From positions 1-36,985 of the forward strand of contig WBXI01000013.1 of NCBI GenBank assembly GCA_008933025.1: a stretch of DNA of 36,985 nt, read 5' to 3'. Shown in pieces: positions 288-36,233 of this stretch. The DNA is from Verrucomicrobiota bacterium (GTDB lineage Bacteria > Verrucomicrobiota > Verrucomicrobiia > Limisphaerales > UBA9464). The translations under genes and the position numbers were made by a program. The notes under the pieces were generated by a model. The model saw only the letters and a list, made by a program, of their open reading frames with translations. It did not search any database and was not told the DNA's origin. How positions within the stretch are numbered: position 1 is the stretch's first letter; each line of letters starts with the position of its first letter.

Positions 288-788
288 ATGTCCGCGCAGT
301 CCCACGCTCTACGGCCGGCCCCATGGGTCCGGTGCGTCGCCGCGTTCGGATTGGCGGCGTACCTTGCCGGTCTGGGTTGGCTCGCGACGCTGTTCACGAC
401 GGCCCTTGCCCTCTGGGACGGCGGCCATCGGGTCCGTATCGAGGCCGGCACCCGCGGCATCCGCGTCGTCCTCAGCCACGATGGCCAGCATCGCCCGGAC
501 CGGCCCCACCAACTTCTCGGTTCCGCCCTGACGGCATTCGCCGAACCGACCTCCCCGGCGGCCCCGGATCACGTCATCGAACTCGGCCCGGGCGGCGGCA
601 TCGTCGCCCGTCTCGATGCACCCGGCCGGATCCGGGAGCCCGGGGTTGCTTCCGGGCCCGTCGCGTACCTCCCGACGGCCTGGGCCCCGGCGATGCCTTC
701 CGGTCCTCCGAACGCGGGACCGGACCGTTCGCGCTTCACGACCGCTTTCTCCGTCCGGGTGGCCCGCACGCACGTGCTGCGTTGCTGA
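288..788 (+). CDS. Small one-helix membrane protein at the head of a heavy-metal efflux operon
   Basis: The 166-residue product starts at the ATG at 288. An upstream in-frame extension is Arg-rich with no domain, so I reject it. Residues about 12-37 form one hydrophobic segment that reads as a signal anchor or uncleaved signal. After it come a short beta-like stretch (HRVRIEAGTRGIRVVLSHDG) and a His/Pro/Asp-containing region, which would lie in the periplasm if the N-terminus is inside. Small proteins of this layout are known to me at the front of CzcCBA-type operons in Verrucomicrobiota. A metal-binding or accessory role is inference from position and the histidines. It lies 109 bp upstream of the outer-membrane component. 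Another open frame at 323-901 overlaps it but lacks the membrane segment and any domain. Confidence 0.55.
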   Translation: MSAQSHALRPAPWVRCVAAFGLAAYLAGLGWLATLFTTALALWDGGHRVRIEAGTRGIRVVLSHDGQHRPDRPHQLLGSALTAFAEPTSPAAPDHVIELGPGGGIVARLDAPGRIREPGVASGPVAYLPTAWAPAMPSGPPNAGPDRSRFTTAFSVRVARTHVLRC

Positions 789-897
789 GGGTCCGGGGCT
801 TCCATCCCCACCGGTTTTCCGGATCGCCCCCGCCCGCGGATTCCCGGGTCGTTTCCCGTCGGATCCCACCGTCCGTATCCACCGATTGTCCCCGTCC

Positions 898-2178
898 ATG
901 AACTCACTGCTCTTTCGATTGTCCCTGATCGCCGGCCTTGCCCTGGCCACCGTTGCCGCGGATCCGGCGCCGGCCACGCCGGATTCCCTCGTCGCCGAGG
1001 CCCTGTCCCACAACGCCGAGCTGGGCTACTACACCGCCCAACTCGAGGCCGCGCGGGCCGAAACCAAGACCGCGGCCCGTCTGGCCCCACCCTCCGTCGA
1101 TCTGCAGGGCGGCCAGATCCGCAGCAAGAACCTCGACCATTCGCTGGCGGGCGAGGGAGCCCTGTGGTCGGCCAGCATCCGGCAGACCTTCGAATGGCCG
1201 GGGCGGCTGTCGTTGCGCAAGGCGATCGCCAACCAGGACGTGGCGCTCGCCACCCTGGGCCTCGGCGCGTTCCGACGGGAATTGGCGGGCAAGGTCCGCG
1301 AAACGGCGCTTGGACTGTCCGGCGCCGAGGAGAAAGCGCGGGTCGCCCGCGGCGTCGCCGACCGGTTCCGCGCGTTGCGGGACGTGTTGGTCCAGCGCGA
1401 TCCGGCAGGCATCGCGCCCCAACTGGAAGTCCGCATCCTCGAGGCCACGGAACTCACGATGCGTCGGCGCGCCGCCGATTTCGAACGGACGGCGACGGCG
1501 GAACGCGTCGAGTTGAACCTGCTGCGGGGTGCCGCGCTGGACGCGTCGCTGGCCGTGGCGCCCGTCGAGCCCTCCTTGCCCGCGCGGCCGGCCCTTGCCG
1601 ACCTGATGGCCGCGGCGAACACCAACAATTTCGAATTGCGGACCCGCGCGGCGGAACTGGCCCAGCAGGGATTCCGCGTGGACCTCGCGCGCAACGAACG
1701 CTGGCCGGCCTTCCAGGTCGGTCCGTCGTTCGCCCGCCAGGAAGGGAGCAGCCTCGACCAGAGCATCGGCATCGGGCTTTCCTTTCCCCTGCCCCTCTGG
1801 CGCAACCGCGACTCCAACGTCGCCGCCGCCGAAGCCCGGCGCCAACAGGCCGCGGCCCTGCTCGAGACGTCGCGGCGCGAAGTCGAGCGCCGCGTGGTGA
1901 CGGCGGCCCGCGGCTATGATTCGCATCTCGCGGAACTGGCGAACTGGCGTTCCGACGCCGTCGGCCATTTCGCCGGGGCCGCCGAGCTTGCCGACCGTCA
2001 TTACCGGCTCGGCGCCGTGCCGGCCACGACCTACGTCGAGTTGCAGAAGCAGTACCTCGACGCCGTCGAAGCCCTGCTCGACACGCGGCGTGCCGCCCTC
2101 GCGGCGGCCGTGGAATTGGAACAGGCCACCGGCCTGAACGTGATCGGCCCCGCGAACGCCCAGCCCCCGCGCCCATGA
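898..2178 (+). CDS. TolC/CzcC-family outer-membrane efflux protein
   Basis: This 426-residue protein has a Sec signal peptide at residues 1-21 (MNSLLFRLSLIAGLALATVA) followed by the two repeated halves of an outer membrane efflux protein. The long amphipathic helices are rich in Ala, Glu and Arg. The strand signatures typical of the beta-barrel are visible, for example SIRQTFEWPGR near residues 90-100 and GIGLSFPLPLW near 290-300. In tripartite efflux systems this protein forms the channel through the outer membrane and docks on the inner-membrane pump. The ATG at 898 is chosen because it puts a good signal peptide at the N-terminus; the open frame extends to 616 without any plausible content. 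Its stop overlaps the start of the RND pump (ATGA at 2175-2178), so the two are translationally coupled. The CzcC subfamily is inferred from the neighbouring pump. Confidence 0.88.
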   Translation: MNSLLFRLSLIAGLALATVAADPAPATPDSLVAEALSHNAELGYYTAQLEAARAETKTAARLAPPSVDLQGGQIRSKNLDHSLAGEGALWSASIRQTFEWPGRLSLRKAIANQDVALATLGLGAFRRELAGKVRETALGLSGAEEKARVARGVADRFRALRDVLVQRDPAGIAPQLEVRILEATELTMRRRAADFERTATAERVELNLLRGAALDASLAVAPVEPSLPARPALADLMAAANTNNFELRTRAAELAQQGFRVDLARNERWPAFQVGPSFARQEGSSLDQSIGIGLSFPLPLWRNRDSNVAAAEARRQQAAALLETSRREVERRVVTAARGYDSHLAELANWRSDAVGHFAGAAELADRHYRLGAVPATTYVELQKQYLDAVEALLDTRRAALAAAVELEQATGLNVIGPANAQPPRP

Positions 2179-5100
2179 TCGAACGCATCCTCGAATTCTC
2201 CCTGCGCCAACGGACCGTCGTCCTCTTGGCCGTCGCGGGCCTCCTGGGCATCGGCATCTGGTCGGCGCGCGAACTGCCCATCGACGCCGTCCCCGACATC
2301 ACCCAACCGCAGGTCCAGATCAACACCGAGGTCCGCGCCCTGGCCCCGGAAGAGGCGGAGATGCTGGTGACCCGCGTCCTGGAACAGGAACTCGCCGGTC
2401 TCCCGCAATTGTCCGAGATGCGCTCCCTCACCAAGTTCGGGCTCTCGCAGATCACCCTGCAGTTCGAGGACGGCGTCGACATCTACCGCTGCCGCCAACT
2501 GGTGGCCGAACGGATCCAGACCGTGCGCCAAAGCCTTCCGCCGGGCGCCGAACCGGGGCTGGCGCCGATCACCACCGGTCTGGGCGAGATCTTCTACTAC
2601 ACGCTGGCATGGCGGGACGACGCCACCAACCGCCCGCCGGACGCCTTCACCCGGTTGCTCGAACTCCAGGAAACCCAGGAGTACGTCGCCAAGCCTTTCC
2701 TCCGCGCCACCCCGGGCGTCGCCGAGATCAATTCGATCGGGGGGTTCACCCGCCAGATCGTCGTCCAACCCGACCCCGACCGTCTTCGCGAGGCCAACCT
2801 CACCTTCGCCGAACTCGCCGCCGTCATCGCGCGCAACACCGACAACGCCGGCGGCGGCATCATCCAGCGGGGCGGCGAGCAACTCGTCGTCCGCGCCGCC
2901 ACGAAGCCCACCACGCTCGACGAGATCGCCGACCTGCCCGTGAAATTCGCCGCCGGTGTCCGTCCCCTCCGCGTGCGCGACCTCGCCGTCGTCCGCATCG
3001 ACTCGATGCACCGCACCGGGGCCGCCACGGAAAACGGCGCCGAGTCCGTCCTCGGCACCGTGATGATGCTCATGGGCGAGAACAGCCGCATCGTGGCCCA
3101 CCGCATCGGGCTGCGCATGGACGAACTCCGCTCCCGGTTGCCACGCGGCATCGAGGTCCGCGTGCAATACGACCGCTCCAATCTCGTCGACCGGACGGTC
3201 GCCACCGTGAAACGGAACCTGTTCGAGGGCGCGATCCTGGTGGTCGCGGTCCTGTTGTTCCTCTTCGGCAACGCGCGGGCCGCCCTCATCGTCGCGTGCG
3301 CCATCCCGCTCTCCTTCCTCGCCGCCATCACCGGCATGGCCCGCTTCGGCATCTCCGGCAACCTCATGAGCCTCGGGGCGGTCGACTTCGGCCTCATCAT
3401 CGACGGCGCCGTGGTGATCGTGGAAAACGTCGTCCGCCAACTCGCCCACCGCCAGCATCACCTCGGCCGTGTGCTCACGGTCGAGGAACGCCACCGCATC
3501 GTGCTGACCGGCGCGAAACAGGTGGGCACGCCCGTCTTCTTCGGCGTCCTCATCATCACCATCGTCTATGTCCCCATCCTCGCCCTCGCCGGCGTCGAGG
3601 GGAAAATGTTCCGGCCGATGGCGCTGACCGTGATGCTCGCGCTGGGCGGCGCGCTGGTGCTGGCGCTGACCTTGATGCCGGTCCTCGCGTCCTTCTTTCT
3701 CGGCGGGAAAATCGAGGAGAAGGAAAACGCAGTCATGCGCTGCCTCCAACGCGTCTACGGACGCGTCCTCTCCGTCGGGATCGCCCACCGCCGGTCGGTG
3801 GCCGCGGGTGCCGTCGCGCTGTTCGCCGCCGGCATCGGGTTGTTCTTCCGCCTCGGCGCGGAATTCGTCCCCCAGCTCGACGAAGGCTCCACCACCTTCG
3901 CCCTCTACCGTCCCGTCGGCCAGAACCTCGCTGCCTCCATCGCCGACCAGATCCAGACCGAGAAACTCGTCCGAGCCCGGTTTCCCGAGGTCACCAACGT
4001 CTTCGCGCGCATCGGCACCGCCGAGGTCGCGACCGATCCCATGCCGCCCAACGAGGCGGACTTCTACCTGTCCTACGCGCCGGCGGGAAGTTGGCGCAAG
4101 GTGGACGGACGCCCGATCTCCAAGGGCGCGTTGGTCGACGAGATCCGCAAGGCCATCGAGGGGACGTTCACCAACACGACCGCCATCGCCTCGCAACCCA
4201 TCGCCATGCGGTTCAACGAAATGCTCGAGGGCGTCCGCGCCGACCTTTCCATCAAGGTTTTCGGACCGGATTTCGACGTGCTCGACGCGACCGCCGCTAA
4301 GATCAAGGCCCTGCTGGAACCGCTGCCCGGCCACGAGGAGATCGAGCACGAGACCGATGGCCGCACCTCCATGCTCACCATCACGCCGCGACGGGACGCC
4401 CTGGCGAGGCGCAATCTCGCCTCGGGCGCGCTGAACGACGCCATCGCCGTCGCGCTGGCCGGCGAGACCGTCGGATCCTTTGCCCACGGGAGCCATACCC
4501 ACGAGATCGTCGTCCGGCTCCGCGGCGACCTGCGCGACGACACCGCCCGGATCAAGGCACTGCCGATCCGTGTCGGCGAATTCGGCCTGGCATCCCTCGG
4601 CGACCTCGCCGACATCACGACGGTCCAATCCGTGCAACCGATCCGCCACGAGGCCGGCCGGCGGCGGGTCGCGCTGCTCGTCAATCTCAACACCCGCGAC
4701 GTCGAGGGTTGGGTGCGGAACGCCCAGTCCATCCTCCGCGAGAAAGTCCCCCTGCCCGATGGCTACATCGTCGAGTTCGGCGGCCAGTTCCAGCGACTCC
4801 AGGACGCCCGCGCGCGCCTCGCCGTCGTCGTGCCCGCGACGCTCGTGCTGATCTTCGTCATCGTGTTCATCGCCTTCGGCAGCGTGCGGCAGGCCCTGCT
4901 GGTCTATTCCGGGATTCCCCTCGCCATGACCGGCGGCGTCATCGCCCTCTGGTGCCGCGGCATGCCGTTCAGCATCACCGCCGCCGTCGGTTTCATCGCC
5001 CTCAGCGGCGTCGCCGTCCTCGACGGCGTCGTCATGGTCAGTTGCTTCAACCGGCTCCGCGAGGAAGGCCTCGGTCTCCTCGAGTCGGTCCGCGAGGGCG

Positions 5101-5345
5101 CGTTGAGCCGCCTGCGTCCCGTCCTCATGACCGCCCTCGTGGCGTCGCTCGGGTTCGTGCCGACCGCCATCGCCACCGGCGCCGGGGCCGAGGTCCAGCG
5201 CCCGCTGGCAACGGTCGTGATCGGGGGAATCCTGAGTTCGACGCTGCTGACGCTCGTCGTGCTGCCGGTCCTCTACGCCTGGTTCGAGAAGGAAAAACGG
5301 GAACCGGAAGCCGGCGAAGCCGCGCCGGTCGTGTCCGCCCACTGA
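2175..5345 (+). CDS. czcA: Heavy-metal efflux RND pump, CzcA/CusA family
   Basis: This 1056-residue inner-membrane proton/metal antiporter matches the usual length of HME-RND pumps. It has a first membrane helix near residues 12-30, a large periplasmic porter loop, a central helix bundle (about 335-540), a second porter loop, and a second bundle to about residue 1040. The proton-relay motif in helix 4 is intact: D404, D410 and E417 within DFGLIIDGAVVIVEN, spaced as in CzcA. The porter segments TDPMPPNEAD and EGVRADLSIKVFG are closer to CzcA/CnrA than to CusA. I would therefore favour a divalent cation (Zn, Co, Cd, Ni) over Cu/Ag, but the sequence does not prove the metal. The gene overlaps the outer-membrane gene by 4 bp. 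No membrane-fusion (CzcB/CusB) adaptor follows; the next gene is on the opposite strand. Confidence 0.92.
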   Translation: MIERILEFSLRQRTVVLLAVAGLLGIGIWSARELPIDAVPDITQPQVQINTEVRALAPEEAEMLVTRVLEQELAGLPQLSEMRSLTKFGLSQITLQFEDGVDIYRCRQLVAERIQTVRQSLPPGAEPGLAPITTGLGEIFYYTLAWRDDATNRPPDAFTRLLELQETQEYVAKPFLRATPGVAEINSIGGFTRQIVVQPDPDRLREANLTFAELAAVIARNTDNAGGGIIQRGGEQLVVRAATKPTTLDEIADLPVKFAAGVRPLRVRDLAVVRIDSMHRTGAATENGAESVLGTVMMLMGENSRIVAHRIGLRMDELRSRLPRGIEVRVQYDRSNLVDRTVATVKRNLFEGAILVVAVLLFLFGNARAALIVACAIPLSFLAAITGMARFGISGNLMSLGAVDFGLIIDGAVVIVENVVRQLAHRQHHLGRVLTVEERHRIVLTGAKQVGTPVFFGVLIITIVYVPILALAGVEGKMFRPMALTVMLALGGALVLALTLMPVLASFFLGGKIEEKENAVMRCLQRVYGRVLSVGIAHRRSVAAGAVALFAAGIGLFFRLGAEFVPQLDEGSTTFALYRPVGQNLAASIADQIQTEKLVRARFPEVTNVFARIGTAEVATDPMPPNEADFYLSYAPAGSWRKVDGRPISKGALVDEIRKAIEGTFTNTTAIASQPIAMRFNEMLEGVRADLSIKVFGPDFDVLDATAAKIKALLEPLPGHEEIEHETDGRTSMLTITPRRDALARRNLASGALNDAIAVALAGETVGSFAHGSHTHEIVVRLRGDLRDDTARIKALPIRVGEFGLASLGDLADITTVQSVQPIRHEAGRRRVALLVNLNTRDVEGWVRNAQSILREKVPLPDGYIVEFGGQFQRLQDARARLAVVVPATLVLIFVIVFIAFGSVRQALLVYSGIPLAMTGGVIALWCRGMPFSITAAVGFIALSGVAVLDGVVMVSCFNRLREEGLGLLESVREGALSRLRPVLMTALVASLGFVPTAIATGAGAEVQRPLATVVIGGILSSTLLTLVVLPVLYAWFEKEKREPEAGEAAPVVSAH

Positions 5346-18211: not shown

Positions 18212-19840
18212 ATGGCCACACTCCACGTCCTCGAGGGTCCCGCCCCCTACCCGGGGCTGACGTTCGAACTCCGGGAAAACGTCCCGGACATCGGGCGCTC
18301 GCCGGATTTGGGCATCGTGCTCGCCGACCGCGGCGTGAGCCGTCGCCATCTCCGCGTGGCGCGGCAGGGAGACCGGTGGTTGGCCGAGGACCTTGGCAGC
18401 AGCAACGGCACCCACGTGAACGGGCTGAAGATCCTCCAACCCGTCCCGCTCCGGTCCGGGGACCAGATCCAGGTCGGCCCGTTCGTGCTCGTGTTCTCCG
18501 ACGGCGCCGCGGGCGAGGCCGATCCGATGATCCTGAGCATGACCCAGGTGGGCGGGGATTCGGACGAGATCTTCCGCGACGCCTCGGGCCGGCGGTTGCG
18601 GGCGATCATGGACCTGACCCGGAGCCTGGGCGGCGAGGCCGAGCCGGGAGCCTTGTTCGACCGACTCGCGGTGCATCTCTTCCGGTTGTTCCCCTCGGCC
18701 GACCGCATCCTGATGGTGGACGTGGCCGCGGACGGACCCCGGGTGGCGGGCGCCCGGATGCGCGACGGCAAGGCCGCGTCGAACCGCACCTTCAGCCGCA
18801 CCTTGCTGCGCCGCGTGACCACGGAAAACATCGGCGTCGTGGCGTCGATGCAATCGGACGCGGAACGCGAGGGGCATTCCCTGTACGAGATGGGCGTGCA
18901 GTCGTTCGTGTGCGTGCCGCTGCAGGACGAGGACGGGAAACCATGCGGCGCGTTGTTCGCGGACCGGTTCCGTCCCGGACCGCCGTTCAGCCACGAGGAC
19001 CTCATGCTGCTGACGACGATCGGCATCCAGATGTCGACGAGCCTGCAGGTCGGGCGGATGCATGCCCGGTTGATCGACCAGGCACGGTTGCAACGGGACG
19101 TGGCGGTCGCGCGGGAGATCCAGCAGGGGTATCTGCCGGACCTCGCGGCGACCGGCCTGCCGGCGGGATACGAGATCGCCGCGATGCTGGCGCCGGCGCG
19201 GGAGGTGGCCGGCGACTTCTACGACCGGTTGGCGTTGGCCGACGGGCGGATGTTGCTGGCGGTGGGCGATGTCGCCGGCAAAGGGATTCCGGCGGCGTTG
19301 TTCCTGACTTCGGTCCGGGCGCTGTTGCGGCATTTTGCCACCACGATCGCGGATCCGGGCGAACTGTTGCGGGCATTGAACGACGCGGTGGCGGCGGACA
19401 ACCCGAACATGACCTTCGTCACGCTCGCGCTGGCCGCGGTCGAACCCGGTGTCGGCCGGATGGTGGTGGCCACGGGCGGCCACCCGCCCCCGATCCGATT
19501 CGGGGTCGGCCGGGCGGCGGCGCCGCTCCGGCACCGGCATGGCCCGCTGGTCGGGTTCGACCGTGCGACCTCGGCGTACCCGACCACGGTGGTCGACCTC
19601 GCGCCCGGGGAGACCTTGCTGTTCTACACCGACGGCGTGACCGAGGCGCCGACCACGGGGGCGAAGCCCGGCGAGGAATTCGGCGTGCGACGGCTCAACG
19701 AATTCCTCGCGGCCCAACCCGCCGGCACGTCGCTCGACCGGATCCACGGCAGCCTGTGCGCGGAGCTGGAACGGTTTTGCGGGACGAAGGTGATGGAGGA
19801 CGACGTCACGTTGCTCTCGATCCGGCGGCGGGAGGAATAG
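18212..19840 (+). CDS. FHA-GAF-SpoIIE protein serine phosphatase
   Basis: This 542-residue cytoplasmic protein has three domains. An N-terminal FHA domain (about 5-95) carries G28-R29-S30, S43-R-R-H46 and G62-S-S-N65-G-T67, the residues that read phosphothreonine in characterised FHA domains. A GAF-like domain (about 135-290, QSFVCVPLQDEDG) follows. The C-terminal PP2C/SpoIIE phosphatase domain (about 315-540) has the metal-binding aspartates D335 (GDFYD), D353 (GDVAGKG) and D530/D531 (EDDVTLL). The parts suggest an enzyme recruited to a phosphorylated partner by FHA and tuned by a small ligand or partner at GAF. SpoIIE-type phosphatases often act on anti-sigma antagonists, but none is encoded here. 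The kinase just upstream is the natural candidate for producing the FHA ligand; this is inference from adjacency. Confidence 0.93.
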   Translation: MATLHVLEGPAPYPGLTFELRENVPDIGRSPDLGIVLADRGVSRRHLRVARQGDRWLAEDLGSSNGTHVNGLKILQPVPLRSGDQIQVGPFVLVFSDGAAGEADPMILSMTQVGGDSDEIFRDASGRRLRAIMDLTRSLGGEAEPGALFDRLAVHLFRLFPSADRILMVDVAADGPRVAGARMRDGKAASNRTFSRTLLRRVTTENIGVVASMQSDAEREGHSLYEMGVQSFVCVPLQDEDGKPCGALFADRFRPGPPFSHEDLMLLTTIGIQMSTSLQVGRMHARLIDQARLQRDVAVAREIQQGYLPDLAATGLPAGYEIAAMLAPAREVAGDFYDRLALADGRMLLAVGDVAGKGIPAALFLTSVRALLRHFATTIADPGELLRALNDAVAADNPNMTFVTLALAAVEPGVGRMVVATGGHPPPIRFGVGRAAAPLRHRHGPLVGFDRATSAYPTTVVDLAPGETLLFYTDGVTEAPTTGAKPGEEFGVRRLNEFLAAQPAGTSLDRIHGSLCAELERFCGTKVMEDDVTLLSIRRREE

Positions 19841-19888: not shown

Positions 19889-21970
19889 ATGCACGTCGCC
19901 AACGATGGTCGGTCGGTCGTCGCCGCCGGGCCCACGCTGGCGTTCCGGATCGCGGTGGGGGCCACGGTGGCCCTGCTGCTCGCCGGTTGCCAACCCTCCG
20001 GCCCGGAGGCGCTGGTCCGCGGCGACCAGGAATTGCAGGCCGGCCATCCGGCCGAGGCGATCCGCCTGCTCGAACTCGCCGCCACGAAACTGCCCACGGA
20101 CGCCCAGACCTGGAACCATCTCGGGCTCGCCTACCACGCCGCCGGCAGGCTCAACGACGCCCAAAAGGCCTACCTGCGCGCGCTGAACTTCAACCGCAAC
20201 CTCGCCGACGTTCAGTACAACCTCGGCGAGTTGCACGTCGATTTCGGCAATGGCCGCGAGGCCGAGGCCGCCTTCCGCGCGTACCTCAACGCCTCGCCCG
20301 ACAACGCGCGCCACACCGGCGCCTGGCGTGGACTCGGGCAATCCCTCGTTCTCCAACGTCAGTTCGCGGGTGCCGAGACCGCCTTCGGCAACATCCTGCG
20401 AATCGACCCCAACGACGCGGATGCCTGGAATCGGCTCGGCCTGGCCCGCGTCCAGATCCGCCACTATCGCGATGCCTACCAGGCTTTCGGCCAAGCGGCC
20501 CGACTCGATCCGACCCTTGCGTCCGCGCACCTGAACCTAGGCGTCACCGCGCAGCAGTACCTCGGGGACCGGAAGGCCGCCCTCCAGCATTACCGCGATT
20601 ACCTCGCGTCGAATCCGGCCGACGCCGACGCGGTGCGCCGGACGGTCCACGAGCTCGAGGTCAAACTCGGGCTGGTCCGTCCCGAAGTGCCACCGGCCCC
20701 GACGAACACGCCGCCAGCCACCTTGGCGCGGGGCACGGCCAACGAGACCGGCGCGCGCGTCGCTCCCACGAACCGGCCCGCGCCACCGTCGACGGTCGCC
20801 GCTCCCACCAATGCCCCGCGCGTGGAAGCGCCGCGCACCCCGGCGCCGCCCGCCGTCGCGCGGACCCCGAAGCCGACCCCGGTCCCGCCGCCGGCCGTCG
20901 CCACCAATCCGCCGCCGGCACTCGTGCTGCGGCCGACGAATCCGGTCGTCGTCCCCCCCGCGGTGGCCAAGCCCGTGGCCGTGGAAGTCGCCGCGCCCGT
21001 TCCCGAACCCGCGAACCCGGTGTTGCAGGTGGTCCGGGTCGACGACGAACCGCCGCCCGTGGTGGCGCGCGACGTCGCGAAGCGCGCGCCGACCGGGCCG
21101 GGTCCGGCGCTCCCGGCGGCCCGTCCGCCGGACACCCTGTTGGCACCGCCGGCCGTCCTGCCCCCCGCGCCGGCGGCACCGGTCCCCGCGGCCGAATCCA
21201 CGGTGGTTTCATCCGACACCACGACCGTTCCGGAATCGGGTCCGGGCGAAGGCAAACGTGGATTCTGGCAGAAGGTGAATCCGGTGGGCTGGGGGAACCC
21301 GGTCCGCTGGTTCAAGAAGGATGCCTCGAAGCCCGAGGTGGCGGCGCCGAAACCGACCCCGGTGGCGGTCGCCAAGGTCACGGTGCCGGCCCGGCAGTTG
21401 CCCCGGGTGACCCCGCTGGAATTGCCGCCCGTCGCAAAACCGGTGTTCGCGCGCTACGAACCGGCGCGACCGAAGCTCGCCGCCACGGGAAACCGGGCCG
21501 AGGCAAACGCGGAGTTCCAACGGGGCGTCGCGGCCCACCAACGGCACGATCTCGACGCCGCCATGGCCGCCTACCGGAAGGCGGTGCAGACCGACCCCAG
21601 TCATTTCGAGGCCCAGCACAATCTGGCGGTGGCAGCCCTCGAGCGGAACGACATGCCCACGGCGTTGCTCGCCGGGGAATCGGCGGTGGCCCTCGACCCG
21701 GCGTCCGCCAACGCCCGTTACAATTTCGCGGTGGCCTTGCAGCGGTCGCGGCACCCGGTGGATGCCGCGGAACAATTGACGGCCGCCGCCCAAGCGCGGC
21801 CCAACGACGCCAACGCGCACCTCGCGCTCGCGGCGTTGTATGCCGGGGATCTCGAGGACGCCGCCCAGGCGCGCCGCGAGTACGAACGGGTCCTTGCCCT
21901 CTCGCCGGCGCACCCGCAGGCGGACAACATCCGGCGTTGGCTGGATCGCAATCCGGCGGGGGCCCGCTGA
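19889..21970 (+). CDS. TPR lipoprotein with a long Pro/Ala-rich linker
   Basis: This 693-residue protein has a lipoprotein signal: a hydrophobic stretch ends in L-A-G-C with the lipidated cysteine at C34. Residues about 36-250 contain five to six tetratricopeptide repeats (for example TWNHLGLAYHAAGRLNDAQK). A linker of about 290 residues then follows, very rich in Pro, Ala, Thr and Val. It contains an isolated aromatic motif, FWQKVNPVGWGNPVRWF (W460, W468, W474). Residues about 510-690 hold a second set of three to four TPRs. TPRs bind proteins, and the linker could span the periplasm or peptidoglycan. Being downstream of a kinase and an FHA-phosphatase suggests a scaffold for the same system, but the intervening promoter candidate allows separate control. 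It ends 16 bp from the convergent GrpE-like gene. Target and role are unknown. Confidence 0.88.
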   Translation: MHVANDGRSVVAAGPTLAFRIAVGATVALLLAGCQPSGPEALVRGDQELQAGHPAEAIRLLELAATKLPTDAQTWNHLGLAYHAAGRLNDAQKAYLRALNFNRNLADVQYNLGELHVDFGNGREAEAAFRAYLNASPDNARHTGAWRGLGQSLVLQRQFAGAETAFGNILRIDPNDADAWNRLGLARVQIRHYRDAYQAFGQAARLDPTLASAHLNLGVTAQQYLGDRKAALQHYRDYLASNPADADAVRRTVHELEVKLGLVRPEVPPAPTNTPPATLARGTANETGARVAPTNRPAPPSTVAAPTNAPRVEAPRTPAPPAVARTPKPTPVPPPAVATNPPPALVLRPTNPVVVPPAVAKPVAVEVAAPVPEPANPVLQVVRVDDEPPPVVARDVAKRAPTGPGPALPAARPPDTLLAPPAVLPPAPAAPVPAAESTVVSSDTTTVPESGPGEGKRGFWQKVNPVGWGNPVRWFKKDASKPEVAAPKPTPVAVAKVTVPARQLPRVTPLELPPVAKPVFARYEPARPKLAATGNRAEANAEFQRGVAAHQRHDLDAAMAAYRKAVQTDPSHFEAQHNLAVAALERNDMPTALLAGESAVALDPASANARYNFAVALQRSRHPVDAAEQLTAAAQARPNDANAHLALAALYAGDLEDAAQARREYERVLALSPAHPQADNIRRWLDRNPAGAR

Positions 21971-22946: not shown

Positions 22947-24356
22947 TCAGACCACGTGCATCTTCACGGAGTCCACCTCGCGGTCGTTGGAGGTCGCGTG
23001 GGGCACCAGGATCACCACCGTATCCCCGCGCTTCAGCCGGTGCCCACGCATGAGGCGAAGGATGGCCCCGTCCACGGAGCCGTCGGGATCGTCGTGCGAG
23101 GACGGCAACACGATCGGGGTCACCCCGCGCAGGAGTTTCAACTGCGCCGCGAGGGGTTCGCGGTCGCAAAACGCGTAGATCGGCGAGAACGACGGCCTCA
23201 TCCAACTGGTGTAGCGGGCCAACTTGCCGTTCCTCGTGAACACCAGGATCGCCGCCGCCCGCAGATTGTCCGCGAGCATCACCGCGCTCCGGACCAATTT
23301 CTGCCGCGGTTGCGTCAGCTCCGCCTCGGCATGGTATCCGGCCCCGCCGCTGCGCTCGATCCGCCGCGCGATCCGGTCCATCACCTCGACGCACGCCATG
23401 GGTTGGCGTCCCACCGTGGTCTCGCCGCTCAGCATGATGGCATCCGCCTGCTCGAACACCGCGTTGGCCACGTCGGTGATCTCCGCACGCGTCGGTAGCG
23501 GGTTCTCGATCATGCTTTCCAGCATGTGCGTCGCCACGATCACCGGCCGGCCGATCCGCTGGCAGGTCTTCACGATCCGCCGCTGGATGATCGGCAACTC
23601 CTCGTACGGGCATTCGATTCCCAGGTCGCCCCGCGCCACCATCACCGCGTCGGAATCCCGCGCGATGGCCTCGAAATGGTCCACCGCGAACTGGTGCTCG
23701 ATCTTGGCGACGATCTGCGGCGGGTGCGACGTGCCGTGGAGGCAGGCGCGCAACATGGCGATGTCCGCCGGGTCCCGGACGAAACTCAGCGCGACGTAAT
23801 CCACGCCGAGTTCGAGCCCAAGCTTCACGTCGGCGCGGTCCTTTTCGGTCAGGGCCGGGAGGCTGACGCGCACGCCCGGCAGGTTGATGTGGCGCCGGCT
23901 ACCGAGGCCTCCCACGGTCATCACCTCGCATTCGACCCGGTCCGGATGGGTCGCCACGACCCGCATCTTCATCTCGCCGTTGTCGATGATCAGCGTGTCG
24001 CCCGCCCGGACGTCGGTGACGAAGTCGGGGTAATTGACGCTCGTGCCTTTGGTGCCCGGCGGGACCACCGCGTCGCCCACGGTGAAGACAAAGCGTTCGC
24101 CCGCCGCGAGCGGGATGCGTTCGGGAACGTCCCCGGTGCGAATGGACGGGCCCTGGGTGTCCATGAGGATGCCCGGGATCAATCCGCGTAGGCGTCCGAG
24201 TCGGCGGATCTCCGGGACCACGCGCCGCACCCAGTCGTGGCGGGCATGGCTCATGTTGAGGCGAAAGATGTCGACGCCCGCGTCCAGCATCTTGCCCAGC
24301 ATTTCCGGGGATTCCGTGGCTGGCCCGAGGGTGGCAATGATCCGAGTCTTGCGCAT
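22947..24356 (-). CDS. pyk: Pyruvate kinase
   Basis: This 469-residue protein is the normal length for a bacterial pyruvate kinase. The enzyme converts phosphoenolpyruvate and ADP to pyruvate and ATP, the last step of glycolysis. The barrel starts at the N-terminus (RIIATLGPATES, then FRLNMSHA with R32 and N34). The catalytic and metal ligands are in place: K218 and E220 in AKIEHQ, D244 in ARGDLG, and T276 in ATHMLESM. PTRAEITDVANAV and MLSGETTVG complete the signature. The B-domain lies at about 75-160, and the C-terminal regulatory domain at about 340-469. One difference from most members is D66-T-Q68-G-P in place of the usual DTKGP. It starts 190 bp from the divergent metalloprotease gene. 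With pyruvate carboxylase elsewhere in the window it sits at the pyruvate node. Confidence 0.96.
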   Translation of the reverse strand: MRKTRIIATLGPATESPEMLGKMLDAGVDIFRLNMSHARHDWVRRVVPEIRRLGRLRGLIPGILMDTQGPSIRTGDVPERIPLAAGERFVFTVGDAVVPPGTKGTSVNYPDFVTDVRAGDTLIIDNGEMKMRVVATHPDRVECEVMTVGGLGSRRHINLPGVRVSLPALTEKDRADVKLGLELGVDYVALSFVRDPADIAMLRACLHGTSHPPQIVAKIEHQFAVDHFEAIARDSDAVMVARGDLGIECPYEELPIIQRRIVKTCQRIGRPVIVATHMLESMIENPLPTRAEITDVANAVFEQADAIMLSGETTVGRQPMACVEVMDRIARRIERSGGAGYHAEAELTQPRQKLVRSAVMLADNLRAAAILVFTRNGKLARYTSWMRPSFSPIYAFCDREPLAAQLKLLRGVTPIVLPSSHDDPDGSVDGAILRLMRGHRLKRGDTVVILVPHATSNDREVDSVKMHVV

Positions 24357-25653: not shown

Positions 25654-28116
25654 TCATTCGGCGGGTTTCAACAGGCGCGCGACGACCTCCGGCGGCAGGG
25701 AACTTCCGCGGATGGCGGCGGCCGCGCGGGTGGGTTCGTGGCGGATCCAGTTCCGCGCGGCGGCCTCGAGTTGGGCGACACGCTGGGCATCGTCGGCAAT
25801 CGCGCCGGCCCAGGTCCATGCCACCTCCGGTTCCTGGTCGGCCATCTGGCCGGCGAAGGCGACGATGGCCGACTGCCGCGATTCGCTTTCGTGCAATCCG
25901 TTCAGCCATGTGGCGGTGGCCGCGGGATCTTCCCGGGCCCATTGGGCAACCAGGGTGGTCTGGGCGTTCGCACGCACGGGGCCCTCGGGGAAAGCAGCGA
26001 TCCATCGCGCCGCGGCCCGGGGATCGGCGCGCGCATAGGTTCCCATGATGGCGGCCACCGCCTGTTCCTGTGCCGCGCCCGCGGGCAATTCGGCGACATA
26101 ACGGGCGGCCTCCTGGGGCGATTGCCCGGCCCATGCGCCCAGCGCGCTGGCCAACGCGGCCGAACGCCCGTCGCCCGCCGGCAAGGATTGGGCCCACGCG
26201 ACCGCCCCCGCCGAATCCGTGGCGGCCCAGCGCGCCGCCAGCGGTTCGTAGAGCGCATCGCGGCCGACGTCGTCGGGAAGCTTCCCGAGAAAAGCCACCG
26301 CCGCCTGGAGATCCTGCGCCGCCCAGTTGCCGAGCACCCCGCGCAGCATGTCGCCGCGCGATTTGCCCGGACCCAACTCGAGCGCGAATTCCGCGGCCTT
26401 GCGCGGATCGGCGTTGCCCCAGCGATCGGCGAGGGTCCCCAGCATCCGGTCGCGCGCCTCGCCCGGGGGCAATCCCAGGGCGTAGGCGCCGGCTTCCCGG
26501 GGATTCTGGGTGGCCCATTGCTGCGAGACCTGCGCCATCGCCACGTCGCGCGCGCGCCCCTCCGGCAACTGCCGGGCCCACGCCACCGCCGTGTCGGCAT
26601 CGATGTCCGCCCAACGTCCGGCGAGATCGCCGACCAATTGCTGTTGCGACTCCCCCGCGGGCAAACCGACGAAGAAATCGGCGAGATGCCTCGGGTCGAT
26701 TTCGCGCATCTGCCACAGGAGGTTTCGCAATCCGTCGCGCCGGAGGGCATCCGGCGGGAGTTGCTTCGCCCAACCCAGCGCGCCGTCCGGATCCTGGGTC
26801 ACCCAACGCTGCAGCAATGCGTTGACGGCGGCGTTCCTCCCCTCGCCCGCGGGCAACTGCAAGGCCTGGGCCGCCGCCGCCTGGGGGTCCGACTCGACCA
26901 TGCCTCCGACCACTCCCGCCAGTGCCTGCGAACGGGCGGGTCCCGGCGGCAGCGCCTGCGCCCACGCGAGCGCCGCCCGGGGATCCTTGCGGGCAAATTC
27001 CGCGCCCACGTTCTGGAAAGCCCAGGCACGGTCCGCGCCCGGTTGTTTGATCGACTTCAGCAACTCCGCGGCGGCCACCGGATCGGACCCCGCCAAACCC
27101 TGCGCCAGCGCGTCCTCGGCAATCGCCCGATCGTTCGGGTTGGAAATCCGCTCCAAGGCCGCCCGGGCGCCCTCGGGATCGCGGTCGGCGAATCCCTGGA
27201 ATATGGCCTGCAACGCCCCCGTGCGCTCGTTGCCGCCCGGCAACTGGTAGACCAAATCCATCGCCACTTTCGGGTCCTGCCCCGCCATCCGCTGCACGGC
27301 ATCCCGCATCGCGCGACGCTTGATGCTCCCGTCGGGCAGTGCCCGCACCCATTCCACCGCGGCTTTCGGGTCGTCGCCCGTCCACGTTTGGAGCACGCGG
27401 GCCAACCCTTCGTCGACGCCGCTCGCCGAACCCTCGGCCAAGGCAAGTTTCGCCGCCTGCCGGGGATCGCTCGAGGCAAGGGTTTGCAGCACGAGGTTCC
27501 GTGCCGCGCGCCGTTGCCCCGGCGGCAGCGACTTCAACCGCTCGAACGCCGCCTTGGGGTCCACCTCCGCCAACCCCGCGAGAAGGGCCGGCATCAATTC
27601 GCGCCGGTCGACCGCGGACGGCAATGCATCGATCCACGCCTGTGCCGCGTGGACGTCCCGCCGGGCCAATTCCCTCAACGCCTCGCGGCAGACACCGATC
27701 CGTTCCCGTGGGTTCTTGAAGCGCCGCGCGTACTGGAGGACCGCGTCCGGATCCTGCAATGCCCATCCCTCGACGGCCAGGTACAGGAATGCGTCGCGAA
27801 GCGCGGGAGGAAGGATCCGCTCGGACACCTCGATGGCGCCCGGAACGTCGCCGGGTCGCAACGACCGCGCGAGGTCCCGGAGTTTCTGCCAGCGCCGTTC
27901 GGGCGAATGGCGCAGGACGGCGCGCAGTTCCGCTTCCAGATCGCGGCGCAGGCCCGAGGCGCCACCGGACAGCGGGACCACGACGCCGGTCGCGCCGGTG
28001 GCCCCGTTGGAAACCGATGCCGTTGCCGTCGCGGGAATCGCGTGGTGTTGTCCGACCCAAAAGCCGGCACCGCCCGCCATCATTGCGGCCACCAAGGCCA
28101 CGACCCCGGTTCGCAT
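25654..28116 (-). CDS. Exported protein of about 23 short W/DP helical repeats
   Basis: This 820-residue protein starts at the ATG at 28116, with AAAGG about 7-11 bp upstream as a possible ribosome site. Residues 4-22 form a signal or anchor helix (GVVALVAAMMAGGAGFWVG). From about residue 80 to the end the sequence is about 23 consecutive units of 31-33 residues. Each reads roughly D-P-x-x-A-x-x-W-A-x-x-L-P-x-G-x-x-R-x-x-A followed by a second helix ending W-A-x-x-D. This is an alpha-hairpin solenoid, distinct in pattern from TPR (W/A/P positions) and HEAT. Arrays of this kind recur in Verrucomicrobiota proteins of unknown function. Binding of another protein or of a long polymer in the periplasm is the natural inference. 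There are no Cys residues, catalytic motifs or haem sites. It is divergent from the hydrolase gene and convergent with the metalloprotease. Confidence 0.85.
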   Translation of the reverse strand: MRTGVVALVAAMMAGGAGFWVGQHHAIPATATASVSNGATGATGVVVPLSGGASGLRRDLEAELRAVLRHSPERRWQKLRDLARSLRPGDVPGAIEVSERILPPALRDAFLYLAVEGWALQDPDAVLQYARRFKNPRERIGVCREALRELARRDVHAAQAWIDALPSAVDRRELMPALLAGLAEVDPKAAFERLKSLPPGQRRAARNLVLQTLASSDPRQAAKLALAEGSASGVDEGLARVLQTWTGDDPKAAVEWVRALPDGSIKRRAMRDAVQRMAGQDPKVAMDLVYQLPGGNERTGALQAIFQGFADRDPEGARAALERISNPNDRAIAEDALAQGLAGSDPVAAAELLKSIKQPGADRAWAFQNVGAEFARKDPRAALAWAQALPPGPARSQALAGVVGGMVESDPQAAAAQALQLPAGEGRNAAVNALLQRWVTQDPDGALGWAKQLPPDALRRDGLRNLLWQMREIDPRHLADFFVGLPAGESQQQLVGDLAGRWADIDADTAVAWARQLPEGRARDVAMAQVSQQWATQNPREAGAYALGLPPGEARDRMLGTLADRWGNADPRKAAEFALELGPGKSRGDMLRGVLGNWAAQDLQAAVAFLGKLPDDVGRDALYEPLAARWAATDSAGAVAWAQSLPAGDGRSAALASALGAWAGQSPQEAARYVAELPAGAAQEQAVAAIMGTYARADPRAAARWIAAFPEGPVRANAQTTLVAQWAREDPAATATWLNGLHESESRQSAIVAFAGQMADQEPEVAWTWAGAIADDAQRVAQLEAAARNWIRHEPTRAAAAIRGSSLPPEVVARLLKPAE

Positions 28117-32561: not shown

Positions 32562-35500
32562 CTAGGCCCGCAACCGCACCAGCAGGTCCTTGCTCTCCAC
32601 GGTGTCGCCCACCTGGGCCGACAACGCGTCGACCACGCCGTCGACGGGCGCGGTGACGGTGGTCTGCATCTTCATGGCTTCCATCATGAGCAGGCGGTCG
32701 CCCTTCGCGACTTTTTGCCCGACGGTGACCGAGATGCTCGCGATGAGGCCCGGGATGGGCGCGCCGACCTGCAGGGGGTCGGCAAGGTCCACCTTCGGCC
32801 GCGTCTTCACCTGGGGCGCGACCTTGCGGTCGGTGATGTGGGCCTCGCGGGTGATGCCGTTCAGTTCGAAATTCACCGTGCGGCGGCCGTCCTTGTCCGG
32901 CTCGCTCACATTGATGAGCTTCACGATCAGGGTCTTGCCCACCTCGATGCGGACGCTGATCTCCTCGCCGGTCCGGAGCCCGTAGAAAAACGTCGGCGTC
33001 GGCAACACGCTGGTATCGCCGAACTCGCGCTGTTGCTTGGCGAACTCGAGGAACACCTGCGGATACATCAGGTACGAGAACACCTCGTCGTCGGTCGCCG
33101 CGCGCTTGAGTTTGCCGGCGAGTTCCTCGCGCAACTTGTCGAAGTCGGCGGGAACGGCGACGGCACCGGGCACGACGCCCTTCTCGTAGTTGCGGCGGGC
33201 CTCGGCGGCGCGTTTCTCGCCCAGGACGACCCGGGAAACATCGGCGGGCCATCCACCCTCGGGCCACCCGAGCCCGCCGGACAGCATGTCGACCACGCTC
33301 TCGGGAAACGGCGTCACGCCGGGCTCGAGATTGACGACGTCCGCGGGCCGGATGCCGCGGCTGAAGAGGAACAGCGCCATGTCGCCGACGACCTTGCTGG
33401 ACGGGGTGACCTTGACGATGTCGCCGAACAGTTGGTTGACCTCGGCGTAGGTGCGGGCGATCTCGGACCAGCGGTGGGAAACCCCCATGCTGGCGGCCTG
33501 TTCCTTGAGATTCGTGTACTGGCCGCCCGGCATCTCGTGCAGGTAGACCTCGGCGGAACCCGTCTTGGGCGCGGTGTCGAACGGCGCGTAGATCTCGCGG
33601 GCCTTCTCCCAGTAATCCGCAAACTCGTTGAGCGTCGCCACGTCCAGCTTGGTGTCGCGCGGCGCGTGCTGCAGCGCGGTCGCCACCGAGTTCAGGTTGG
33701 GCTGCGAGGTGCTGCCCGACATCGACGCCACGGCGAGATCGACGATGTCGACCCCGGCATCGCAGGCATTGAGCACGGCGGAGGCCTGGACCCCGGCGGT
33801 GTCGTGGGTGTGGAAATGGATGGGCAGGCCGACCTCGTCCTTCAGCGCCTTCACCAGACGCCGGGCGGCAAGGGGACGACACAGTCCGGCCATGCCCTTG
33901 ATGGCAAGGACGTGGGCGCCCATGCGTTCGAGTTCCTTCGCCAGCTTCACGTAGTACTTCAACGAGTACTTCTCGCGGGAAGGGTCCAGGATGTCGCCGG
34001 TGTAGCAGATGGCGGCCTCGCAGACGGCGTGGGTGCCGCGGACCGCTTCCATGGCCACGCGCAGGTTCCGCAGGTAGTTGAGCGAGTCGAAAATCCGGAA
34101 GATGTCCATGCCCGCCGCCGCCGCGTGGTGCACGAATCCGGCGACGACGTTCTCGGGATAATTCGAGTAGCCGACGGCGTTGGAACCGCGGAAGAGCATC
34201 TGGAAACAGATGTTCGGGATGCGCTGGCGCAGGTCGCGCAGGCGTTCCCAGGGATCCTCGCCCAGAAAACGCATCGAGGTGTCGAAGGTCGCACCACCCC
34301 ACATCTCCAGCGAGAACAACCCCGTCTTCGCGTCGCCCAACCGCTGCGCCAGCGCGTCCGCGCACGCCAGCATGTCGTAGGTGCGCACCCGCGTCGCCAT
34401 CAGCGACTGGTGCGCGTCCCGGAACGTCGTGTCGGTCACCAGCAACCGCTTCTGGCGCCCGATCCATTCCGCGAACTTCTCGGCGCCCATCTCCAGCAAC
34501 AGATCGCGCGTGCCCGGGGGAATCGGCGCGGCGGGATCGGACTTGGGGACTACCGGCAGGTCGAACGGCTTGGCGGGACGGTAACCCTTCGCGTGCGGGT
34601 TGCCGTTCACCAGGACGTTGCCGATGAAATTCAGCAGCTTGGTGGCCCGGTCGCGCTTCGGTTTGAACGCGAACAACTCCGGCGTCGTGTCGATCAGCGT
34701 CGTGGTGGCCTGGCCGGAACGGAACGTGCCGTTCCCGATCACGTTCTCGAGGAACGGGATGTTGGTCTTCACGCCGCGGATGCGGAATTCCGACAACGCC
34801 CGGTGCATGCGGTCGCAGGCGATCGGGTAGCTCTGGCCGCTGGCAATGACCTTCACCAGCATGGAATCGTAGAACGGCGTGATGACCGCGCCCGAATAGC
34901 CCATGCCACCGTCGAGCCGGATGCCGAACCCGCCCGGCGAGCGGTAGGCGAGGAGCTTGCCGTAGTCCGGGGTGAACTTGTTCTCGGGATCCTCGGTGGT
35001 GACGCGGCACTGGATGGCGTAGCCGTTGCGGGCGACCTGGTCCTGGAGCGGCATGCCGACTTCCGGCGAATGCAGCGCGTGGCCGCTGGCAACGAGGATC
35101 TGGGCACGGACCAAGTCCAGGCCGGTGATCACCTCGGTGACCGTGTGCTCGACCTGGATGCGGGGGTTCATCTCGATGAAGAACCACTCGTGGCGGTCGA
35201 GATCGTAGAGGAACTCGATGGTGCCGGCGTTGTCGTACCGGATCTCCCGCGCCATGCGGGCGGCGGCGTCGCACAACTCCTTCACCACCCCGTCGGGGAG
35301 CCCGAAGCTGGGGGCGACCTCGACGACCTTCTGGTGCCGGCGTTGCACCGAGCAATCGCGCTCGTGCAGGTGGATCACGTTCCCGTGGCGGTCGCCGAGG
35401 ATCTGGACCTCGATGTGTTTCGCGCGCGGAATGTATTTCTCGAGGAAAACCGCCGGATTGCCAAAGGCCCGTCCCGCCTCCGCCTGCGCTTCGTCGAGAA

Positions 35501-36086
35501 GGTTGGACAGATCCCCGGGCTTCGGGACCACCCGCATGCCGCGCCCGCCGCCGCCGAACGCCGCCTTGATGATCAGCGGGAATCCGATCTGGCGCGCGAC
35601 TTTCATCGCCTCGTCCCGGTCGGTGATCGGCTCCTCGGTTCCCGGGAGCACCGGCACGTTGATCCGCTGGGCCAACGCGCGCGCCGCCGTCTTGTCGCCC
35701 ATCATCTCCAGCAACTCGGGCCGCGGGCCGACAAAGGTGATGCCCGCGTCGCCGCACGCCTTCGCGAACGCCGCGTTTTCGCTCAGGAAACCGTACCCGG
35801 GATGGATGGCGTCCACGCCGCTGGCCTTGGCGATGGCGACGATCCCATCGATGTCGAGGTAGGCGGCGACCGGACCGCGCCCCTGGCCGACGAGGTAGGC
35901 CTCGTCCGCCTTGAAGCGGTGCATGCAGAAGCGGTCCTCCTGCGCGAAGACGGCGACGGTGCGGACGCCGAGTTCGTTGGCGGCGCGGAAAATCCGGATC
36001 GCGATCTCGGACCGGTTCGCGGCCATCAGTTTCCGGAATGGTCGACGACCGGCGGCGGCGGGTTCTGAAGATTGGCGGTGCGACAT
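32562..36086 (-). CDS. pyc: Pyruvate carboxylase
   Basis: This 1174-residue single-chain enzyme matches the length of the alpha-4 type. It carboxylates pyruvate to oxaloacetate with ATP, bicarbonate and biotin, refilling the TCA cycle. The biotin carboxylase part (about 18-470) has the ATP loop GGGGRGM and EMNPRIQVEHTVTE. The carboxyltransferase part (about 545-830) has TTFRDAHQS, the carbamylated lysine K730 in AIKGMAG, and HFHTHDTAG. The biotinyl part ends the protein with MEAMKM, biotin on K1139. The ATG at 36086 is preferred because an upstream extension lacks family content and a promoter candidate lies just ahead of it. A first few residues (SHRQSSEPAAAGRR) are a non-conserved head. It is transcribed alone and convergent with the cytochrome. 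Confidence 0.97.
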   Translation of the reverse strand: MSHRQSSEPAAAGRRPFRKLMAANRSEIAIRIFRAANELGVRTVAVFAQEDRFCMHRFKADEAYLVGQGRGPVAAYLDIDGIVAIAKASGVDAIHPGYGFLSENAAFAKACGDAGITFVGPRPELLEMMGDKTAARALAQRINVPVLPGTEEPITDRDEAMKVARQIGFPLIIKAAFGGGGRGMRVVPKPGDLSNLLDEAQAEAGRAFGNPAVFLEKYIPRAKHIEVQILGDRHGNVIHLHERDCSVQRRHQKVVEVAPSFGLPDGVVKELCDAAARMAREIRYDNAGTIEFLYDLDRHEWFFIEMNPRIQVEHTVTEVITGLDLVRAQILVASGHALHSPEVGMPLQDQVARNGYAIQCRVTTEDPENKFTPDYGKLLAYRSPGGFGIRLDGGMGYSGAVITPFYDSMLVKVIASGQSYPIACDRMHRALSEFRIRGVKTNIPFLENVIGNGTFRSGQATTTLIDTTPELFAFKPKRDRATKLLNFIGNVLVNGNPHAKGYRPAKPFDLPVVPKSDPAAPIPPGTRDLLLEMGAEKFAEWIGRQKRLLVTDTTFRDAHQSLMATRVRTYDMLACADALAQRLGDAKTGLFSLEMWGGATFDTSMRFLGEDPWERLRDLRQRIPNICFQMLFRGSNAVGYSNYPENVVAGFVHHAAAAGMDIFRIFDSLNYLRNLRVAMEAVRGTHAVCEAAICYTGDILDPSREKYSLKYYVKLAKELERMGAHVLAIKGMAGLCRPLAARRLVKALKDEVGLPIHFHTHDTAGVQASAVLNACDAGVDIVDLAVASMSGSTSQPNLNSVATALQHAPRDTKLDVATLNEFADYWEKAREIYAPFDTAPKTGSAEVYLHEMPGGQYTNLKEQAASMGVSHRWSEIARTYAEVNQLFGDIVKVTPSSKVVGDMALFLFSRGIRPADVVNLEPGVTPFPESVVDMLSGGLGWPEGGWPADVSRVVLGEKRAAEARRNYEKGVVPGAVAVPADFDKLREELAGKLKRAATDDEVFSYLMYPQVFLEFAKQQREFGDTSVLPTPTFFYGLRTGEEISVRIEVGKTLIVKLINVSEPDKDGRRTVNFELNGITREAHITDRKVAPQVKTRPKVDLADPLQVGAPIPGLIASISVTVGQKVAKGDRLLMMEAMKMQTTVTAPVDGVVDALSAQVGDTVESKDLLVRLRA

Positions 36087-36101
36087 ACGGCGCGGGCGCA
36101 C

Positions 36102-36131
36102 CTTATAACGGCACCGGCGGGAAACTGGCAA
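36102..36131 (-). promoter_or_regulatory. Candidate sigma-70 promoter of pyc
   Basis: On the minus strand TTGCCA (36126-36131), a 17-bp spacer and TTATAA (36103-36108; TATAAG one base further) lie 16 bp before the start codon at 36086. The AT-rich -10 stands out in an otherwise GC-rich stretch. No Shine-Dalgarno sequence is visible between it and the ATG. Confidence 0.6.
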
Positions 36132-36151
36132 AGGAAAGAACCGCGGCCCCG

Positions 36152-36201
36152 AAAAACACACGGCCCGGAGTGCCGTCGCCCTGCCCAGCACGGCATTCCG
36201 G
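36152..36201 (-). terminator. Hairpin with T-run after the zinc-ribbon gene
   Basis: On the minus strand an 11-bp stem (36191-36201 with 36165-36175, one G-T pair) with a 15-base loop is followed after a few bases by TTTTT (36152-36156). It lies 33 bp after the zinc-ribbon stop and upstream of the pyc promoter candidate, so the two genes look like separate transcription units. Confidence 0.6.
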
Positions 36202-36233
36202 CACCGGTCGCGGTCCACCGCCCCACGACGCCC

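Follow-up and report, generated by a model that had tools for sequence, protein, structure and literature searches.

A 32-residue W/DP repeat protein of Verrucomicrobiota, predicted to form a membrane-anchored periplasmic alpha-solenoid

Helical repeats are known in several unit lengths: 34 residues in TPR, about 35 in PPR, 36 or more in Sel1-like repeats and longer still in HEAT. Long helical-repeat proteins act as assembly scaffolds in the periplasm of Campylobacter, where the flagellar motor protein PflA carries 17 TPRs and PflB combines TPRs with a transmembrane motif (PMC11870540). Membrane-coat-like alpha-solenoid proteins have also been reported in PVC bacteria, in Verrucomicrobia as well as Planctomycetes (PMC2799638). 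Here we analyze a repeat protein encoded in a stretch of 36,985 nucleotides (referred to as the window) on contig WBXI01000013.1 of a Verrucomicrobiota bacterium. The gene and the parts of its product are listed in Table 1.

Table 1. Position of the repeat protein gene within the window, and the protein parts distinguished in this study.
Feature	Position	Strand	Description	Basis
Complete W/DP repeat protein gene	25654..28116	(-)	820 aa; ATG at 28116, stop codon 25656-25654	Translation; codon-position substitution pattern; orthologs
N-terminal transmembrane segment	28051..28107	(-)	Residues 4-22, GVVALVAAMMAGGAGFWVG, glycine-rich, after MRT	Hydropathy; flanking charge in 39 relatives
Linker	27946..28050	(-)	Residues 23-57, predicted disordered, rich in A/T/S/G/P	pLDDT <50 at residues 1-56; alignment variable and gapped
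N-terminal helical region ahead of first regular unit	27850..27945	(-)	Residues 58-89	Model helices 60-67 and 72-85
22 tandem units	25738..27849	(-)	Residues 90-793, period 32	Self-comparison; unit alignment; helix pattern of the model
C-terminal half unit and cap	25657..25737	(-)	Residues 794-820 (27 residues), EPTRAAAAIRGSSLPPEVVARLLKPAE	Alignments; C-terminal ends of relatives

The original prediction, made from the window's letters and its reading frames, described about 23 tandem copies of a 31-33-residue unit, divergent in sequence and strict in frame. Our count comes to 22 full units plus a half unit with the cap. Units start at residues 90, 122, 154, 186, 217, 249, 281, 313, 345 and 378, and thereafter each 32 residues up to 762; twenty of them have 32 residues, one has 31 and one 33, and 19 of the 21 spacings are exactly 32 (the remaining two being 31 and 33). 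Taking the window protein together with the collected relatives, a spacing of 32 occurs in 635 cases, the next most frequent value being 31 (48 cases). The mean BLOSUM62 self-score is +0.738 at lag 32 and does not exceed -0.56 at any of the other lags between 20 and 49, against a highest score of -0.44 among 200 shuffles. Identity between units averages 24.8% with a maximum of 47%, compared to 9.4% (maximum 10.8%) for shuffled sequence.

A consensus over 155 units from eight orthologs bears out the proposed core D-P-xx-A-xx-W-xxx-L-P-x-G-xx-R-xx-A, with D1 at 69%, P2 at 81%, A5 at 82%, W8 at 46% (plus F/Y/L), L12 and P13 both at 66%, G15 at 51%, R18 at 77% and A21 at 53%. Beyond that core, the unit is closed by a second conserved tryptophan (W29, 59%) and an alanine (A30, 61%). 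We looked for a tandem repeat of the 32-residue unit at the DNA level and found none left; the unit duplications are therefore old.

In the AlphaFold2 model each unit consists of a 9-residue helix, an LPxG turn and a 17-residue helix, with DP marking the tight turn into the next unit. These alternating helices are predicted throughout residues 60-815, and the model contains no strands. Mean pLDDT is 81.6 overall and 88.3 over the last 13 units (residues 378-820), which agrees with the solenoid anticipated from sequence. The model was built from an input of eight sequences and its pTM reaches only 0.53 (whole protein) and 0.67 (residues 378-820), making the overall superhelix geometry unreliable. 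Taken together, a long rod-like or spiral two-helix alpha-solenoid is well supported by prediction. Profile searches of the protein and its orthologs found no catalytic or other domain besides the repeats. The C-terminal cap carries a motif, S-x-LP-x-E-V-x-x-RLL, that recurs at the C-terminal end of close relatives.

Of the eight other genomes of the genus, five contain a full-length ortholog (44-67% identity), and further orthologs occur in two other genera of the family (35-42% identity, one of them cut by a contig end). They measure 824-832 aa, have the same unit number and show almost no gaps within the array; this nearly gapless conservation at the protein level persists down to 42-44% identity, in line with the suggested selection for a solenoid. 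For the five orthologs within the genus, 18-20 of the 22 units find their best match at the corresponding place in the array, indicating that fixation of the array preceded the radiation of the genus and that no re-shuffling followed. In the most distant ortholog this correspondence holds for only 7 units.

Searched with a profile made from eight sequences at a threshold of E 1e-10, 61 of 288 Verrucomicrobiota genomes contain relatives, many of them in several copies. In a contig collection covering all phyla, a narrow pattern matched only in Verrucomicrobia (divergent members elsewhere could escape this pattern), and no match was obtained in plasmids, phages or viral contigs. The named family members stem from Verrucomicrobia metagenome assemblies, and no description of such a repeat family in Verrucomicrobia turned up in the literature searched. 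The genome of the window itself carries a paralog (G000:C26:6190-8526, locus L022), a 778-residue open frame directly downstream of accB-accC; the same arrangement is seen in two further loci of the genus, L025 and L026.

Assignment of the gene to the minus strand follows from two observations: substitutions between orthologs are most frequent at codon position 3 (0.488 in the closest pair, with 0.255 and 0.163 at the other two positions), and the antisense frame, although open at the window locus, gains stops in six of seven orthologs. The antisense open reading frame, chosen by a GC-frame gene caller at this locus, was rejected on the codon-position evidence. The repeat gene converges on an M50 protease/CBS gene at one end and diverges from a gene for a prolyl-oligopeptidase-family hydrolase at the other, and is therefore probably transcribed alone. 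A search for a sigma-70-like promoter at the gene was negative, and no Rfam elements were found within the window. In close relatives, pyruvate kinase and M50 protease genes adjoin the repeat gene. Nonetheless, no operon partner is conserved across genomes: pyruvate kinase, M50 protease, accB-accC and sulfatase-like neighbours are not kept more widely.

Several other genes of the region may be recorded here. Pyruvate kinase (22947-24356, minus strand) and pyruvate carboxylase (32562-36218, minus strand) lie on opposite sides of the repeat gene. A TPR protein of 693 aa (19889-21970, plus strand) is encoded directly downstream of an FHA-GAF-SpoIIE phosphatase-type protein (18212-19840), and 616-5345 (plus strand) encodes an outer-membrane efflux protein and, behind it, an AcrB-family RND pump. 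Two orthologs are followed, downstream and on the same strand, by a gene whose product of 750-790 aa contains an EF-hand-like segment (L017:11563-13812, plus strand; L019:6240-8612, minus strand).

Nearly all relatives have a transmembrane segment at the N-terminus. Among 39 family proteins the net charge is higher before than after this segment in 27, equal in 10 and lower in 2; start codons and segment boundaries were set by a simple rule for this count, and individual rows may be off. Under the positive-inside rule the bias in 27 of 39 points to a cytoplasmic N-terminus and a periplasmic solenoid. Hence the solenoid is probably periplasmic and anchored in the inner membrane by its N-terminus, a topology call that rests on charge statistics with ties in 10 of the 39. 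The protein had been described as exported; given its N-terminal membrane anchor, it is more aptly called tethered to the membrane than freely exported. In one short relative (L044:6613-7572, minus strand) a lipoprotein-like N-terminus, LLSLLAVLSCSCGE, replaces the transmembrane anchor, and this would fit the same, periplasmic side for the solenoid.

We compared the window protein and its orthologs to Pfam, NCBIfam and PADLOC, and the window protein also to PHROGs. No match at E 10 was obtained for the window protein in Pfam or NCBIfam, and with a period of 32 the repeat indeed fits neither TPR nor HEAT spacing. Two matches to PHROGs of unknown function (E 6e-4 and 2e-3) span 17 and 59 residues. 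Searches of PDB sequences with the window protein, the proteins A1, A3 and A4, one distant relative and an idealised consensus returned nothing significant, the best (non-significant) leads being the designed protein C5HR2_4r (E 0.019), TON_1535/3zpj (E 0.033) and pre-mRNA-splicing factor 6 (E 0.041). Structure comparison yielded generic solenoids only (PPR, HEAT/ARM).

The right-handed two-helix solenoids of the TPR/PPR class share with our protein the tandem helix pairs and a similar unit length (34-35 against 32 residues), but differ from it in helix lengths (here 9 residues for the first and 17 for the second), in its predicted periplasmic site and in its signature, DP..A..W...LPxG..R..A, which is neither that of TPR nor that of PPR. 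We rejected TPR since 20 of 22 units have 32 rather than 34 residues and no Pfam TPR profile matches the window protein at E 10; among the orthologs the best TPR match is TPR_16 at E 0.03. PPR was rejected by sequence as well, the unit having 32 instead of 35 residues and no PPR profile matching the window protein, the orthologs or ten distant relatives. HEAT/ARM solenoids (importins, SF3B1, condensin) take many of the top places in the Foldseek ranking, but at overall TM-scores of only 0.14-0.47 and a very high rmsd; the unit found here is shorter, and HEAT/ARM was discarded because no profile matches the window protein (one ortholog has HEAT at E 0.097). For Sel1-like repeats (SLR, PF08238) an idealised consensus array reaches 27.1 bits (E 5.7e-6), short of the 30.7-bit cut-off, around W..DP..A..W, but the real protein and its orthologs are without match, and the 32-residue unit lacks the long inter-repeat loop. 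The profile of OloA from the Olokun defence system (PADLOC PDLC03925) matches weakly, at E 2.6e-8 for the window protein and in seven of eight orthologs. It was rejected: about 120 of the profile's 596 positions are aligned, at 19-32 bits, and the profile matches unrelated ORFs at similar scores. No defence neighbourhood was seen around the repeat gene. Overall, the W/DP repeat family appears to be unnamed in the searched databases, while its fold itself appears to be an ordinary alpha-solenoid.

The structural ranking raises the question whether the solenoid could bind nucleic acids in the manner of PPR proteins, with its repeats in the cytoplasm. PPR structures do score best, namely the designed PPR 5i9d (Z 14.4, rmsd 18.2 over 333 residues) and PPR10 (Z 11.8, rmsd 27.5 over 509 residues). 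However, according to the structure tool's own calibration a Z near 14 is common for unrelated helical models, and both rmsd values are very high. Since in addition the charge pattern predicts a periplasmic solenoid, the repeats are acidic (calculated pI 5.1-5.8) and PPR profiles do not match, we consider nucleic-acid binding highly unlikely.

A periplasmic role seems more plausible. The periodicity, the anchor segment and the unit number fixed in orthologs can be read from the sequences themselves; fold and topology are predictions, and protein binding and a scaffold role are inferred. We think it reasonably likely that the window protein is a scaffold, a periplasmic alpha-solenoid anchored in the inner membrane and binding partner proteins along its surface. 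One N-terminal helix would hold the protein in the inner membrane, leaving the N-terminus on the cytoplasmic side, and a flexible 35-residue linker would lead into the periplasm. There, 22 stacked helix pairs would provide a long superhelical surface, closed by the C-terminal cap, whose most likely task is to bind extended peptides or partner proteins, one or more, and to keep them close to the membrane in the manner of periplasmic TPR scaffolds. A scaffold best explains the combination of a tethered periplasmic solenoid, a fixed unit number, no enzymatic domain and no operon partner. As no partner gene is conserved nearby, nothing points to a specific complex, and the modest conservation at surface-type unit positions (identity 0.23-0.40) makes no single defined binding site evident. 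The Campylobacter scaffolds are comparable in being long helical-repeat proteins of the periplasm, in the case of PflB with a transmembrane motif (PMC11870540). They differ by having true TPRs and additional beta elements, and no sequence relationship to the window protein is shown. Foldseek does list a structure of the Campylobacter periplasmic scaffold (9hmf_K), with an E (0.005) that is non-specific; flagellar genes were not recognised in the neighbourhood of the repeat gene.

The unit number, fixed in orthologs at 44-67% identity, together with the recurring cap motif might also suit a periplasmic ruler or tether, whose solenoid spans part of the periplasm and sets the distance from the inner membrane to the cell wall or outer membrane and whose cap contacts an envelope polymer or outer-membrane protein. 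Yet paralogs in the phylum differ widely in unit number (about 6 to 22), no peptidoglycan- or outer-membrane-binding domain was found, and a fixed unit number could equally follow from a fixed partner, which leaves a ruler unlikely. Binding of a polysaccharide or other envelope polymer, for substrate capture or degradation, is suggested by shorter relatives of 474-490 aa located immediately downstream of a sulfatase-like gene (L043:2911-6370, L046:3998-7399 and L058:4465-7748) and by the frequency of tryptophan, which makes up 3.0% of the window protein. This sulfatase linkage is confined to one genus, however, and the tryptophans occupy unit positions 8 and 29 and probably serve there in helix packing. 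Given also that no carbohydrate-binding domain is present, we regard a polymer-binding function as quite improbable, and the protein-binding scaffold remains our preferred reading.

Some distant relatives bring the membrane-coat proteins into view. The ELYS profile PF13934 exceeds its cut-off in three of ten of them (L049, L055 and L056; E 2.6e-8 to 4.4e-9), and when genomes were searched with PF13934 the matches were weak, several of them falling in recognised members of the W/DP repeat family and none in 14 control genomes. In view of the precedent of membrane-coat-like proteins in PVC bacteria (PMC2799638), the solenoid might be a divergent bacterial counterpart of the helical domain of ELYS-type nucleoporins or membrane-coat proteins. 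Nonetheless, the window protein is without ELYS match even at E 10, and the scores of the relatives are sums over repeats in which single stretches reach 17-22 bits and coverage is at most about 120 of the 220 profile positions. The reported PVC proteins have an N-terminal beta-propeller (PMC2799638), whereas the window protein has a transmembrane segment and a disordered linker instead, with neither a beta-propeller nor a strand in its model. Convergence of the motif (W-x-x-D-x-x-x-A) is likely. Considering the low single-stretch scores, the partial coverage and the missing match in the window protein, the ELYS resemblance is probably convergent, and a common origin must be judged extremely improbable.

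On a wider scale, one might picture a phylum-wide Verrucomicrobiota family of 32-residue W/DP repeats: tethered periplasmic solenoids of about 6-22 units, multiplied as envelope-organising scaffolds and possibly sharing ancestry with the ELYS helical domain. In this full form the picture is speculative and very unlikely to hold. If the ELYS likeness were true ancestry it would bear on the debate over coat-like proteins in PVC bacteria, but evidence for such ancestry is at present weak. The family is large in Verrucomicrobiota, yet unnamed in Pfam, NCBIfam and solved structures. Its strict 32-residue consensus would be a natural template for designed repeat proteins, and the family as such offers a testable handle on envelope organisation in Verrucomicrobiota.
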